Below, piece by piece: positions 894 to 33,702 of a stretch of 33,702 bases of DNA. Under the pieces are notes generated by a model. It did not search any database, was not told where the DNA came from, and saw nothing but the letters and a program-made list of their open reading frames with translations. The position numbers were made by a program, and so were the translations under genes. Position 1 is the first letter of the stretch, and every line of letters begins with the position of its first letter. This stretch comes from a virus, in the IMG/VR virus record IMGVR_UViG_3300027759_000024, positions 1 through 33,702 of that record; one strand, 5' to 3'.

Positions 894-1367
894 TTACATT
901 GGTGGGGGAGGAGGTGGCATACCGCCGCCAGCGGACGGGATACCTGGAATTGGCGCAGCAGACATAGCTTTAGCCTCAGGTGATGCGCCACCAGCCTGAG
1001 GAAGTGTTTGAAGCATTTGCAAAATTTCAGACTGCTGCAATTCGTTGGTCTTATTTTTGCGCGGCCCTATTAAGCCGGACAGTTGCCGAATAGCAGCCAA
1101 TGCTTTTTGGCCTTCTGGAGATTCTGACCCAAAAGCGGGCAATGACTGTTCTAGCAAGTCCATTGCCATGCCAATGTTAATCAATGCACCTTCTCTGCTA
1201 CCCATCTTCGGTTCGGGGGTAGACATAGGCGCAGACATAGGCGGGGTTTCCGCATCCGACATTGCACCAGGAAGGGGAGCGTCTGCACCAGGAGGCATTG
1301 GCATAGCAGCGCCAGCAGAACGACTGCCTCGCATTAGCTCTCTCAACTTCTCTTCTGGCACACTCAT
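894..1367 (-). CDS. Proline-rich protein upstream of scaffold and capsid
   Basis: This 157-residue protein has a short charged N-terminal helix (SVPEEKLRELMRG), a Pro/Met/Ala-rich linker, a helical middle (about residues 60-120) and a Gly/Pro-rich tail ending in a run of six prolines and Met. The ATG at 1367 is preferred over an upstream in-frame start because AAAGGAG lies seven bases upstream of it. The proline-rich ends suggest flexible arms binding a partner such as portal or scaffold, but this is inference. It is the first gene after the hairpin-rich spacer at 1386-1490, which may carry an internal late promoter serving this gene, the scaffold and the capsid. Confidence 0.7.
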   Translation of the reverse strand: MSVPEEKLRELMRGSRSAGAAMPMPPGADAPLPGAMSDAETPPMSAPMSTPEPKMGSREGALINIGMAMDLLEQSLPAFGSESPEGQKALAAIRQLSGLIGPRKNKTNELQQSEILQMLQTLPQAGGASPEAKAMSAAPIPGIPSAGGGMPPPPPPM

Positions 1368-1418: not shown

Positions 1419-1445
1419 TGGCGGTTATTTAGCATCCAACCGCCA
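1419..1445 (-). other. Perfect 8-bp inverted repeat (RNA hairpin candidate)
   Basis: Arms TGGCGGTT and AACCGCCA flank 11 bases. It lies between the 12-residue micro-ORF and the proline-rich gene. There is no following T-run on either strand, so it is not a standard terminator. It may be an RNA processing or stability element. Confidence 0.5.
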
Positions 1446-1468
1446 AATGATGTGCTGCTCTAGGCAAC

Positions 1469-1484
1469 CAGAGGTTCCCCTCTG
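1469..1484 (-). other. 6-bp hairpin with GGAA tetraloop
   Basis: On the minus strand CAGAGG and CCTCTG pair perfectly around GGAA, a GNRA-type tetraloop that makes short RNA hairpins unusually stable. It starts two bases after the stop codon of the 12-residue micro-ORF. No T-run follows. Confidence 0.55.
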
Positions 1485-1485
1485 A

Positions 1486-1524
1486 TTACTTGCGAGACTT
1501 ACGTCCTTTACGACCTTTACGCAT
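1486..1524 (-). CDS. Micro-ORF, 12-residue Arg/Lys/Gly peptide
   Basis: The reading frame encodes MRKGRKGRKSRK and stops at TAA. It is preceded by AAGGAG with a seven-base spacer (GCGCATT), as good a ribosome binding site as any in this genome. Eight of twelve residues are Arg or Lys. The peptide resembles a nucleic-acid-binding tail rather than a folded protein. A second micro-ORF of the same character lies 79 bases upstream in the transcript. Real translation is suggested by the ribosome binding site and the repeated theme, but peptides this short cannot be confirmed by sequence alone. It could instead be a translational coupling or leader element. Confidence 0.5.
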   Translation of the reverse strand: MRKGRKGRKSRK

Positions 1525-1586
1525 AATGCGCTCCTTCATCAAGGCGGCCACTTACTTTACAGGGGAAGCAGCCATACCCTTTTATC

Positions 1587-1598
1587 GCCCTTGCGGGC
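1587..1598 (-). other. Short hairpin with GCAA tetraloop
   Basis: On the minus strand GCCC and GGGC pair around GCAA, a GNRA tetraloop. It lies just after the stop codon of the 13-residue micro-ORF, mirroring the GGAA hairpin that follows the 12-residue one. The stem is only four base pairs. Confidence 0.35.
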
Positions 1599-1603
1599 AA
1601 TTC

Positions 1604-1645
1604 TTACCGACGAGTCTTACGACCGCGCTTTGCCATTTTGTACAT
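1604..1645 (-). CDS. Micro-ORF, 13-residue Arg/Lys peptide
   Basis: The reading frame encodes MYKMAKRGRKTRR and ends at TAA. AAGGAG followed by six T residues precedes the ATG, a strong ribosome binding site. Seven of thirteen residues are Arg or Lys, and the RGRKTRR end matches the character of the neighbouring 12-residue micro-ORF. It follows the stop of the 57-residue gene by 16 bases, so the region reads as a packed series of tiny genes between portal and head genes. Function is unknown; nucleic-acid or capsid-interior binding is a guess from charge. Confidence 0.5.
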   Translation of the reverse strand: MYKMAKRGRKTRR

Positions 1646-1661
1646 AAAAAACTCCTTGTGG

Positions 1662-1835
1662 TCAACGACGGGCATAGTCACGCTGACTGCGCCCTGTGTA
1701 GTTTTTAACCCCGTCCTGACGGTATGTCAAGGAGGGAGCCGCTGCTTTTCTTTGCAAAGAAGATGTATTTACGCGGGGTTGGTCTGCCTTGGGCTGGGTA
1801 ACGCCTGCGCCGGATGAACCTGGTGTAGCTGCCAT
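1662..1835 (-). CDS. Small basic protein overlapping the portal 3' end
   Basis: This 57-residue protein has a Gly/Ser/Ala-rich N-terminus and a basic, Tyr-containing C-terminus (RSQRDYARR). Two consecutive ATG codons (1838 and 1835) overlap the portal stop codon. The second is chosen because it lies five bases after the AAGGAG in the last portal codons. The overlap suggests translational coupling to portal. No domain is recognised. It begins a group of short, basic reading frames (this gene and the micro-ORFs at 1604-1645 and 1486-1524). Confidence 0.6.
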   Translation of the reverse strand: MAATPGSSGAGVTQPKADQPRVNTSSLQRKAAAPSLTYRQDGVKNYTGRSQRDYARR

Positions 1836-3454
1836 CATTGCTCCTTGGGTGGTGGGCCTGGGGGCTTGGGTGGAGCAGCAGCGGCTTTTTCAGCCTGCGT
1901 CTTCTCCATCTTCTTGAGCCTGTCCTTGAGTAATTGTTTCATAGGAGGCTCTAGCAAGTCAAGCAAAGATTCCTTGTCGATTGCCTGCGCCTTAAACAAG
2001 TTGAACGCCAGTTGCCGCAAGTCTTCTGTGAAGATAGGACTGTTGCTGTGTGCATCCACTTTGACCACAAAGTCTTTGGTGAACTGTTCGGAAATAAACG
2101 GCAGACCTTCTACATCTTTGAAGTGCGTGTTGTCGTATGACTGCATACACTTGAGATACAGCGTAGCCAACTTCTCTAGGCTGTCTTCAATCACTAACGC
2201 ACGTTTTTTGGCGCGGCTGCTTCCCATTCTGGCAAGCTGGCTGGCGTGACCAGAAGAGCGGACACCCGCTTCACCCTTGCCTTGCAGCACGTTGCCAATG
2301 CCGGACACTTCCTCAAACATTTGGTCTATCTGACCTAGTTCTTTGAACAAGTCTGGCGGGATGGTAGGAGCCAACTTTTCGACCTTGGCGTTAGGCATGT
2401 CAGTTGCCAGCAAACCACCAGCGCGGTTGAGTGCAAAATTCTTCTCATCCAAGATGCCCGTAAATCCAATCAACGCCGTGGGCGGCGAGACTTGTTTGCT
2501 TAACAGGTCAAGGATTTCAGCAAGACGCTTTGTCCGCAGTTGCTGTAGGTAAATCAAACGCGCTACTTCTGACTGACCCCAGTAATAGTCATACAGAGGG
2601 TTGGGGCAGATTTGAATGAATGGCAATTCGCCTTTCAAAAATACTTGCTCACCTGGGCGGTCATAGATGATGATGTCAGGGTCAGCACGGGTGACTACTT
2701 GGTAGTCGGCAATATCATCATTCCACACCCACAACTCAATCATTTCCACAGTCTCTTCTGACACCGTGGCTTTGTACTTGTTGCTGCCAGCAAGGTCGAG
2801 GTTGACGTTGCCGTACATGGTTGGGTTGGACGCAGACAAGATGATGCGCTCTACCCCATTGGCAATCTCTGTGCGCTCATGCTGTGTGGCACTCACGCGC
2901 TTAACGATTGCCTCGCGCTGTGGGTGGTTGTACAGCCGAGCGTATAGCTCAGACTTGGTGATGTAGTAACTTTGGACGATGGCCTCTTGCCTGTCGGTGT
3001 ACGGGGTATCTTCTCGCAACACACCCATGCTTCCAGGTTCCACCATGTACGGGTGAATGCCGTTGTTGATGATGAGTTTGACAAAGGTGGAGGAGTAACA
3101 CAAAGACCAAGAGACTGCCTGCGAGAACACCTGGTCAGCATTGCTGTTGAGCCACTCATCATTGAGTGCGCGGGTCAGCACAGGAATCTTGCGGTGCTCT
3201 AGCTCATTGACCGCCGCACCGAGGTTGATAGAGAAGCGGGTTGTCTCTGCTGAATACAGGAACGAGGTTAGCTGGTCAATGTGCGGATAGATTTTGTTGA
3301 AAATTGCGGGCGATTCGCTGGGCGCATTCCCAAAGAGGTAGTAGCTACGCAGAGAAGCGTAGTCAGGGCGGCGCTCTTCCCGAGAGACAAGACACTTCTG
3401 TATCAAGTCAAGGTAGAACAATTCCCTCTGTACTGGCTCTTTTGGGATTCTCAT
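1835..3454 (-). CDS. Portal (head-tail connector) protein
   Basis: At 539 residues it has the usual length of a podovirus portal. It starts with a helical region (PVQRELFYLDLIQKCLVS...), followed by mixed alpha/beta sequence, a long helical C-terminal half (about residues 330-520) and a Pro-rich end. Portal proteins form the dodecameric ring at the capsid vertex, through which DNA is packaged and ejected. Its position, after the large terminase and two small genes and before the scaffold and capsid, is the standard packaging-to-head order. The start ATG at 3454 overlaps the stop of the zinc-ribbon gene by ATGA. Assignment is from general resemblance, length and synteny; no single diagnostic motif exists for portals. 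Confidence 0.85.
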   Translation of the reverse strand: MRIPKEPVQRELFYLDLIQKCLVSREERRPDYASLRSYYLFGNAPSESPAIFNKIYPHIDQLTSFLYSAETTRFSINLGAAVNELEHRKIPVLTRALNDEWLNSNADQVFSQAVSWSLCYSSTFVKLIINNGIHPYMVEPGSMGVLREDTPYTDRQEAIVQSYYITKSELYARLYNHPQREAIVKRVSATQHERTEIANGVERIILSASNPTMYGNVNLDLAGSNKYKATVSEETVEMIELWVWNDDIADYQVVTRADPDIIIYDRPGEQVFLKGELPFIQICPNPLYDYYWGQSEVARLIYLQQLRTKRLAEILDLLSKQVSPPTALIGFTGILDEKNFALNRAGGLLATDMPNAKVEKLAPTIPPDLFKELGQIDQMFEEVSGIGNVLQGKGEAGVRSSGHASQLARMGSSRAKKRALVIEDSLEKLATLYLKCMQSYDNTHFKDVEGLPFISEQFTKDFVVKVDAHSNSPIFTEDLRQLAFNLFKAQAIDKESLLDLLEPPMKQLLKDRLKKMEKTQAEKAAAAPPKPPGPPPKEQ

Positions 3455-7426: not shown

Positions 7427-8124
7427 GCTGTTGCTTTCAGTTCTGCGTACTTCTTAATTTGCGGCACACCGTTCTTGAGTAAAACCACCTTGCTGTCATC
7501 AGGAGGAACTTCCCCCGCCTGCTGGTAATGAAAGGCCAGGGTGGTAGGGTAGTTGACAGTAGCTTTCATAGACCGCGCTATCTTGACCCCTGAGTCCTGC
7601 ACGGCTTTCCAGAAGTATCTGTCCCCTATGTACCCGTACTCTCGGGGCCGAAAACCCCACTCCTTGCACAGCGAGAATGTTTCACGTGAAAGCAAGAAAC
7701 AGTTGGTGTCATTCCAGTGGACACCATTGCTCTCAGTATCCACGCCCATCTGTGTCCCGTCCATCCTCCACAGAACGCGAGGACAGGTTACCACCTTCGC
7801 CTGCGACTGTTGCATGACCTCCACCATAGTAGCTATGTGGTCAGGCTCAAACCAGCAGTCAGCATCCAGCAAGCAGATAGCGTCAGCACCCTGCACACTA
7901 GCTACCGACAGACCTACTATCCTGGGCGTGTTGCCAGAGTCATTGCAGTTGGGCAGAGAGATGTGGACAACATCCGCACCCTTCTCAAAAGTCTGTACAG
8001 GATGACCGTCTGCCACCATGTAGTGAACAATGTCGCAGTGGGTCTGCTTCCGGACACTACGCCAGCAACGCTCCAACACGGCTATAGGTTCTTTCCAATA
8101 AGGGGTGACAACTGCTACTCTCAT
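7423..8124 (-). CDS. Family 2-like glycosyltransferase
   Basis: The 233-residue protein has the standard GT2 layout: an N-terminal strand and turn (VVTPYWKEP, residues 5-13), LERCWRSVRKQT, the DxD motif in LLDADCW (residues 85-91), then TNCFLLSR and the acidic segment YIGDRYFW near the acceptor site. GT2 enzymes move a sugar from a nucleotide donor to an acceptor. There are no membrane segments, so it should act in the cytoplasm. It overlaps the following glycosyltransferase gene by ATGA. Location in the late operon, just before packaging genes, suggests a late role such as decorating virion proteins, but this is inference. Confidence 0.8.
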   Translation of the reverse strand: MRVAVVTPYWKEPIAVLERCWRSVRKQTHCDIVHYMVADGHPVQTFEKGADVVHISLPNCNDSGNTPRIVGLSVASVQGADAICLLDADCWFEPDHIATMVEVMQQSQAKVVTCPRVLWRMDGTQMGVDTESNGVHWNDTNCFLLSRETFSLCKEWGFRPREYGYIGDRYFWKAVQDSGVKIARSMKATVNYPTTLAFHYQQAGEVPPDDSKVVLLKNGVPQIKKYAELKATA

Positions 8125-32670: not shown

Positions 32671-33681
32671 TTACAGTGAAAGGTAGTTGTAACCCGTCAC
32701 CTTGGTCATTGACTTGGGCTTGACGTTCACCAGTTCGGCAATCATCAGCACCGCGCCAACATAACCAATTTGCCAGTTGGGCAGAGTGGACTCAAATCCT
32801 GTGAACACAAACGAACCTTGCTCATGGATGTAGAGCGACAGGTAGTTGGTGTTGAGGAAGTAGACCGTGCCTTCGGGGCAGTAGGGGTCAGGATAGATTG
32901 GCACACCAGCAACCATCAAGGCGCGGAACGCAGCCTGGGGGCCGTTGTTGTCGCCGTCAAAGCCGGAACCTGGGGTGATGACATACTGTTCTTGACCAAC
33001 AAAGTCTTGAGCCAGCAGCGTCCAAGTACCAAAGCCGCAAACACCAAAGCTAGGCATCTCAGCACCGTTCTTCACAGTACCAGAGATGTATTGCAGGATG
33101 TTCTGACGGGTGGGGTTAACAGAACCAGCAGCGTACTGCTTCGACTTCCACCAGGTGTAAGTCGAGCGGTTAATGTTGCCGTAGGTAGCCAAAGTTGTAC
33201 CGTCATCAACAGCACCAGGCAGTCCGATGAACTGTTGGGTGTTGGTGGTGTTGGTGTACAAGGCAGTTGCCATTGCGTCCATCATCACGTTGGTCGCATC
33301 GTTCATACGAGCTTCAATCAACGGGATGATTGCTGCGTCTTGCTGAACTGCACCTTCCATACCGAGGAACGGCACGGGAGAAATCATCAGCTTCAAGTCA
33401 AACTCAGCGTTGTAAGCACCTTGCTGGACTGACGGTTGGGCAAAAGAGCCGCTGTAGTCAGACCATTGGGCATTCACAAACTGTGCGCCTTGGACGGGAA
33501 CAGTGATGGAAGAAACACCACCAGAGGCTTGCTGACTATTGCTAATCAGGGCCGCAAGTAGCGGGGTCGAGTTGTAAAGCTGGACAACCAGCTTCGGGAT
33601 AAAGGCTCTACGAGTTACGTAAGTCAGTTCAGTAAACTGAGATGACCCTGTAGCTGGTAGGATGCCGCCGCCAATAGCCAT
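32671..33681 (-). CDS. Major capsid protein
   Basis: The 336-residue protein (FTELTYVTRRAFIPKLVVQLYNSTPLLAALISNSQQASGGVSSITVPVQGAQF ... NVMMDAMATALYTNTTNTQQFIGLPGAVDD ... GVPIYPDPYCPEGTVYFLNTNYLSLYIHEQG) has the length and overall layout of an HK97-fold shell protein: an N-terminal arm, an extended beta region and a long central helix (about residues 123-150). It follows the scaffold gene in the operon and has a perfect AAGGAGG ribosome binding site, fitting its need for high expression. The gene crosses no break on the circle; only the contig ends duplicate its first 35 codons. The subfamily is not clear. Confidence 0.85.
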   Translation of the reverse strand: MAIGGGILPATGSSQFTELTYVTRRAFIPKLVVQLYNSTPLLAALISNSQQASGGVSSITVPVQGAQFVNAQWSDYSGSFAQPSVQQGAYNAEFDLKLMISPVPFLGMEGAVQQDAAIIPLIEARMNDATNVMMDAMATALYTNTTNTQQFIGLPGAVDDGTTLATYGNINRSTYTWWKSKQYAAGSVNPTRQNILQYISGTVKNGAEMPSFGVCGFGTWTLLAQDFVGQEQYVITPGSGFDGDNNGPQAAFRALMVAGVPIYPDPYCPEGTVYFLNTNYLSLYIHEQGSFVFTGFESTLPNWQIGYVGAVLMIAELVNVKPKSMTKVTGYNYLSL

Positions 33682-33702
33682 AAGGCCTCCTTACGAACAG
33701 AT
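33576..33702. repeat. Right copy of 127-bp terminal direct repeat (circular join)
   Basis: Exact copy of 1-127 covering the capsid start and its ribosome binding site; see the left copy. It shows that the contig closes on itself. Confidence 0.95.

Follow-up and report, generated by a model that had tools for sequence, protein, structure and literature searches.

The internal head proteins IPI to IPIII of phage T4 are basic, folded proteins of about 10 kDa with cleaved targeting peptides, and are carried with the DNA. Basic peptides of the size considered here are typical RNA binders, as exemplified by the lambda N peptide and its boxB target, and the complete N protein, of about 107 aa, contains parts that bind RNA polymerase and NusA. 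A catalogue of Fremin et al. 2022 (Cell Rep 39:110984) reportedly lists predicted, conserved, unannotated phage small gene families. In adenovirus, a protease releases core protein X (Mu), a mature peptide of 19 residues, from a precursor of 79 residues; Mu is present at 100–300 copies per virion and helps to condense the DNA (PMC7998265). In T4, the protein gp32 represses its own mRNA by way of a pseudoknot that precedes the ribosome binding site (PMC535899). Here we describe one to three polybasic genes of only 10–16 codons, lying between the portal and capsid genes of hundreds of lake and freshwater bacterial viruses. In the literature that we searched we found no description of such tandem polybasic peptides or of the pseudoknot RNA that accompanies them, although the family may already be listed in the Fremin catalogue.

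The window, i.e. the whole stretch of DNA that was analysed, corresponds to a virus record 33,702 bases long. A direct repeat of 127 bases at its two ends (1–127 and 33576–33702) makes a complete circular or circularly permuted genome probable. The features of interest are collected in Table 1. Across relatives the order of the head-gene cassette is kept, running from TerL through a zinc-ribbon-like protein, the portal, ORF58 (where present), the micro-ORFs, P161, s61 and a scaffold-like protein to the major capsid protein, and P161 lies downstream of the micro-ORFs at every locus where it was detected. This setting agrees with the first-pass annotation of the window, which had linked the peptides to head genes in general terms. 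ORF58, of 58 aa, has a conserved KADQPRV motif and a basic C-terminus, has no PHROG match, and is absent from L242, L325, L307 and other distant relatives. The proteins encoded on the minus strand at 894–1367, 699–884 and 148–678, between the micro-ORFs and the capsid gene, are conserved into distant relatives and gave no PHROG or Pfam match, apart from a weak one for the last.

Table 1. Positions of the features discussed, in window coordinates
Feature	Position	Strand	Remarks
Portal protein	1835..3454	-	Pfam SU10_portal, PF23899; upstream of the micro-ORFs
ORF58, small protein between portal and A	1662..1838	-	conserved in near relatives only
Shine-Dalgarno AAGGAG of A	1652..1657	-	6 nt ahead of ATG; SD-like motif at the same place in relatives
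Micro-ORF A, MYKMAKRGRKTRR, 13 codons + TAA	1604..1645	-	conserved in most relatives
Hairpin 3' of the A stop	1584..1601	-	ATTGCCC-GCAA-GGGCGAT; stem variable in relatives, loop partly GNRA
H-type RNA pseudoknot, leader of B	1546..1580	-	covariation; in most relatives
Pseudoknot S1	1580–1577 with 1564–1561	-	AGGG/CCCT, 4 pairs
Pseudoknot S2	1573–1566 with 1553–1546	-	GGCUGCUU/AAGUGGCC, 8 pairs
Shine-Dalgarno AAGGAG of B	1531..1536	-	6 nt ahead of ATG
Micro-ORF B, MRKGRKGRKSRK, 12 codons + TAA	1486..1524	-	conserved in most relatives
Hairpin over and past the B stop	1464..1489 (core 1484..1469)	-	CAGAGG-GGAA-CCUCUG
Second hairpin GGCGGTT...AACCGCC, A-rich loop (GGATGCTAAAT)	1420..1444	-	just before the promoter-like site
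Promoter-like TTGACA-N16-TACAAA	1387..1415	-	overlaps perfect inverted repeat GTTTGTA-N5-TACAAAC; upstream of P161
P161, conserved proline-rich head-cassette protein	894..1367	-	next gene after B
Major capsid protein	33681–32671	-	PHROG major head protein

Both micro-ORFs that had been proposed in the window were confirmed as a tandem pair on the minus strand, each with its AAGGAG at a distance of 6 nt. A detector for such frames (8–26 aa, at least 40% K+R, an SD-like motif) returned one further match besides A and B on the two strands of the window, shuffled versions of which gave a mean of 0.6 matches per strand, and outside the spacer it found 23 matches in 2.22 Mb strand-bases of related contigs, equivalent to a background of 0.005 per 500 nt. 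The first 80 relatives were fetched by portal similarity, and nearly all of those having the spacer carry A and B in the same place with an SD; later portal searches enlarged the set to 168 loci. In this larger set, the counts of which include near-duplicate contigs, 150 loci have two micro-ORFs, one has three, 15 have one and two have none, i.e. 166 of 168 keep at least one and about 90% at least two. The detector covered 600 nt, so that L019, scored with one micro-ORF, in fact has both, B being beyond the cut. Chance, already judged unlikely from the parallel layout, is excluded as the origin of A and B by this conservation, set against 0.005 matches per 500 nt of background. Copy number varies, being one in e.g. 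L190, L197 and L242, and three in L171, L188, L192, L202, L218, L245 and L303. One relative, L326, has neither peptide, yet its portal, ORF58 and P161 are in place, indicating that the function is not absolutely required, or is replaceable.

Portal-independent scans of 2.9 million viral contigs, made with the peptide pattern and SD only, led to the same cassette. The pattern MARKARKGRK yielded at least 79 newly fetched loci and, among the matches listed, all 74 with a portal match have a micro-ORF 212–466 nt past a portal of the same family; with MARKxBBxBRK, 67 loci were obtained, and all 62 with a portal match have the micro-ORF beside a homologous portal, including neighbouring portals of only ~27–31% identity. 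Both peptide scans, among the matches listed, recovered loci of this head-gene cassette only. In MW202803, BUCT555 and MW202566, annotated phages whose capsid proteins are distant relatives (MCP 23–28% identity), no such micro-ORF was found there. Two GenBank relatives, MW202825.1 (L082) and MW202753.1 (L083), do carry the micro-ORFs, unannotated, in keeping with the expectation that gene finders would miss both: their records annotate antisense ORFs instead. These hypothetical proteins, at 7779–8039 in L082 and 4740–5038 in L083, are probably spurious calls.

Several relatives are rearranged around the cassette. L332 has an inverted portal, its micro-ORF remaining beside the head genes, and extra genes have been inserted 3' of the micro-ORF in L242/L285, L325 and L356. 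The insertion in L356 includes, judged by eye, an HNH homing endonuclease-like gene, some 190–700 nt past the micro-ORFs and ahead of the head genes. L224 has no portal match despite enough DNA, and its TerL fragments are inverted or rearranged, although ORF58, P161 and the capsid genes are retained; this arrangement is probably an assembly fault. Contigs of this phage group, L319–L326, fall in MAGs labelled Saccharibacteria, Legionella, Balneolaceae, Nitrosomonadales and others, and were probably mis-binned in these unrelated MAGs, whose labels thus give no host.

The coding check suggested in the first-pass annotation gave conserved starts and stops, a preserved K/R pattern and mainly synonymous substitutions in relatives. 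For this test distinct sequences were each paired once and compared with 2000 null draws. In A, 182 nucleotide changes in 41 independent pairs were distributed over codon positions 1/2/3 as 49/20/113 and produced 50 amino acid changes, versus 119.7 under the null (minimum 104; 0/2000 draws as low), and in B, 130 changes in 30 independent pairs were distributed as 28/25/77 and produced 35 amino acid changes, versus 84.6 (minimum 70; again 0/2000). At fixed sites Ser swaps between TCT and AGC and Arg between CGN and AGA, and indels among relatives comprise whole codons, e.g. MYKAKRGRKTRR versus MYKMAKRGRKTRR. Taken as comparative evidence, these patterns indicate that the two frames almost certainly code for protein and are genuine micro-genes. 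Two other frames were considered and set aside: a tiny third frame located between the two (ATGGCTGCTTCCCCTGTAAAGTAA, MAASPVK), the start and stop of which are not conserved and whose conserved letters are accounted for by the pseudoknot described below, and readthrough of the A stop into the open frame beyond, where relatives such as L005 soon have a stop.

The encoded peptides are more constant in charge than in sequence. Among 121 distinct peptides, 116 have a net charge of +6 to +8. Arg occurs 463 times in the whole set and Lys 426 times, with nine Val and a single Leu, and Ile, Phe and Trp are absent; one peptide has an acidic residue, and its start was probably called too early. In near relatives A follows MYKxxKRGRKTRR and B follows M(A)RKARKGRKxRK, whereas distant examples include MARKHKRAKRK and MARHMRRSRRK (L307). 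A longer form of 24 aa, which exceeds the minimum of 20 residues for the family searches, had no PHROG match. The resemblance between A and B (AKRGRKTRR versus ARKGRKSRK) suggests that the two are tandem paralogues that arose by duplication.

Nearly all relatives carry GGGTRTGGCTGNYTNCCC...AAGTGGCC, or variants of it, between A and B, which can be folded into an H-type pseudoknot. In a sequence-anchored alignment of 50 distinct sequences, 91.5% of the pairs are standard and 73 cells are changed on both sides, versus 21.0 in shuffles (0/500), and when the partners were slid as a control at most 12 cells were changed on both sides. The pairs of S1 vary between AU, GC, CG and UA, and the sixth and seventh pairs of S2 between CG and AU or UA; a minority of sequences have mismatches at three inner pairs of S2, which interrupt that helix. 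The distance from the end of S2 to the start codon of B is 20–23 nt in 204 of 225 loci. A scan with the pseudoknot pattern only gave at least 63 newly fetched loci and, among the matches listed, 62 of 63 have a basic micro-ORF directly 3', the remaining locus having the 24-residue peptide form as in L081. Rfam 15 gave no gathering-level match anywhere in the window, and its sole match within 1300–1850 was a snoRNA at chance level (E 3.3). Covariation and the fixed position thus make it very probable that a conserved H-type pseudoknot, a newly recognised RNA, precedes B. This element, the strongest regulatory candidate in the B leader, was missed by the first-pass annotation.

The presence of the pseudoknot tracks that of B rather than that of A: it is retained in L242, L190, L201 and L236, where A is missing, and was lost together with B in L326, while L293 and L322 have neither. 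It was also recognised by eye in L353 and L356. The distant loci L297, L303, L307 and L309 have peptides without the pseudoknot core, which shows that it is unnecessary for peptide function. In L307, L309 and L310, also without the core, another hairpin (CCCACGCCCGGCTGGG-like) lies directly 5' of the SD of the first micro-ORF, and this may be a replacement leader structure.

Each micro-ORF of the window is followed by a GNRA-tetraloop hairpin (GCAA after A, GGAA after B), as had been described, the stem of the latter overlapping the B stop codon. The loop is a preference and no invariant: post-stop hairpins are common across relatives, with varied loops, and the strict GNRA loop occurs in 25 of the 122 distinct sequences that follow A and in 44 of the 134 that follow B, versus 0.4% in shuffles, an enrichment of 50- to 80-fold. 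GNRA hairpins are also present elsewhere in the window. Being restricted to a minority of relatives, the strict loop was dropped as an essential partner of the peptides, and the post-stop hairpins are probably mRNA-stabilising or spacing elements. At the site of the second hairpin, relatives have similar structures with variable stems and a recurring A-rich loop (TGACATAAAAT-like). The promoter-like site recurs in relatives 5' of the P161 gene with a spacing of N16/17, and its sequence suggests that it could be a promoter with an operator. It was missed in the window by a consensus promoter scan because that scan requires the second hexamer to end in T; the consensus scan of the region found no terminator-like site. 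With a crude promoter pattern, as an unshuffled count, 167 of the 237 loci scored have a site 3' of B and 36 have one 5' of it, and in L332, L242, L325 and L341 a promoter-like site was recognised by eye just 5' of the leader.

Our best overall explanation, to which we assign a probability of roughly 45%, is that A and B are head-cassette micro-genes whose products would serve as polycations in assembly or packaging, with B under the control of its pseudoknot. The peptides would be free, presumably unfolded polycations of 13 and 12 residues with a net charge of about +8, probably synthesized late, alongside the portal and capsid proteins. They would bind nucleic acid electrostatically, most likely the phage DNA or the portal/prohead–DNA interface, and would act during head assembly or packaging, while translation of B would be controlled by the H-type pseudoknot that closely precedes its ribosome binding site. 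The molecular role itself, as late polycations for head assembly or genome packaging, is put forward tentatively, at somewhat below even odds. Neutralising the charge of the whole 33.7-kb genome would take ~8,000 peptide copies, which makes histone-like bulk condensing unlikely and a local or partial role likelier. DNA packaging in tailed phages generally relies on an ATP motor, and these phages group separately from viruses whose capsid proteins have Arg-rich arms (PMC7096446), which counts against a polycation role in the head. A more specific version, in which free polycations of 10–16 residues encoded in tandem are assembly or packaging peptides and B is autoregulated by binding the pseudoknot in its own leader, appears rather doubtful to us; if true, it would add a novel class of component to phage heads, and B would be among the smallest autoregulated genes known.

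The main rival to this assembly and packaging reading is that the peptides serve as arginine-rich regulators that bind RNA, in the manner of a minimal lambda N. Their targets would be the pseudoknot or the GNRA-type hairpins next to their own frames, and through these they would autoregulate the head operon at the level of translation or transcription. We consider this unlikely as a full account, and RNA binding, including autoregulation of B, could operate simultaneously with the preferred role. Peptide size and basicity are typical of RNA binders. The GNRA enrichment after A and B and the tie between pseudoknot and B point the same way. Moreover, repression by T4 gp32 of its own mRNA offers a precedent that works through a pseudoknot (PMC535899). 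However, most relatives lack the GNRA loop, other loops occur on the same hairpins, GNRA hairpins are found elsewhere in the window, the four distant loci named above keep peptides without the pseudoknot core, and a 12-mer is without the polymerase-binding region that lambda N needs. If instead the frames were regulatory upstream ORFs, ribosome stalling or transit, and not the peptide, would govern the neighbouring head genes, in line with the earlier suggestion that the frames merely tune downstream head genes. Support for such a reading comes from the strong SDs of these short frames and from the RNA structures adjoining them, and in the four loci with a promoter-like site 5' of the leader the micro-ORF could start the head transcript. 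Several observations weaken it and make it improbable: in the window, as in 167 of 237 loci, a promoter-like site stands between B and the next head gene, so that the transcript starting there would exclude the micro-ORFs; in some relatives foreign genes, e.g. the HNH endonuclease-like one in L356, separate micro-ORF and P161; copy number varies from one to three; the Arg/Lys codons are common ones that are freely swapped for synonyms; and the peptide sequence itself is conserved.

The peptides might alternatively act on the host, by binding host nucleic acid, the ribosome or the nucleoid, or as cationic antibacterial peptides. Small polycations in free form are capable of poisoning the functions of nucleic acids, and host machines are the targets of many phage small proteins (review, PMC11323111). 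However, the genes stay in the structural cassette and not with early genes, and they lack sequence diversification of the kind usual in host-targeting genes; membrane action is unlikely given essentially no hydrophobic residues, and we rate this reading a shade less probable than the upstream-ORF one. That the frames are untranslated, their conservation reflecting an RNA or DNA element, can hardly be right: RNA structures do flank both frames, but such an element would leave unexplained the codon-position pattern, the synonymous swaps, the preserved starts, stops and SDs, and indels of whole codons (MYKAKRGRKTRR versus MYKMAKRGRKTRR).

Protein genes of 10–16 codons can thus persist across deep phage divergence, with portals down to ~27% identity, even though gene finders overlook them and may report antisense ORFs there instead. 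With its pseudoknot, B offers a compact system in which translational control of a micro-gene could be tested, and the peptides are short enough for synthesis, hence for simple binding tests.

Compared with the systems described at the outset, the locus shares some traits with each. Like lambda N and boxB, it pairs an Arg/Lys-rich peptide segment with a nearby hairpin of GNRA-type fold; unlike them, its peptides are complete at 12–13 aa, without NusA- or RNA polymerase-binding regions in either the 12- or the 13-aa product, and the GNRA loop is not conserved, a boxB-type GNRA hairpin being absent in distant relatives. In leader-peptide attenuators the leader frame shares the transcript of the regulated gene and precedes a terminator; here most loci have the promoter-like site between B and P161 and a few have it 5' of B, and the scan of the region gave no terminator-like site. 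The T4 proteins IPI to IPIII are likewise basic tailed-phage proteins encoded with head functions, but they are folded, of ~10 kDa and without evident similarity to the present peptides, for which carriage with the DNA is a prediction. For the pseudoknot 5' of the B ribosome binding site, the T4 gene 32 operator is, by analogy, the nearest model: in both phage mRNAs an H-type pseudoknot, here with both helices covarying, immediately precedes the site at which ribosomes bind for the linked gene, although the sequence differs, the UUAAA repeats are absent here, and the gene is a polybasic frame of 12 codons. Adenovirus Mu resembles the peptides as a very short, strongly basic product of a dsDNA virus made with structural genes, and A and B are indeed short, highly basic and encoded in the head cassette; Mu is cut from a precursor, whereas the phage peptides, which have no homology to it, come directly from genes of 10–16 codons. 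If the peptides are in virions, they would represent a tailed-phage counterpart of Mu, with a bearing on how the charge of packed DNA is handled.
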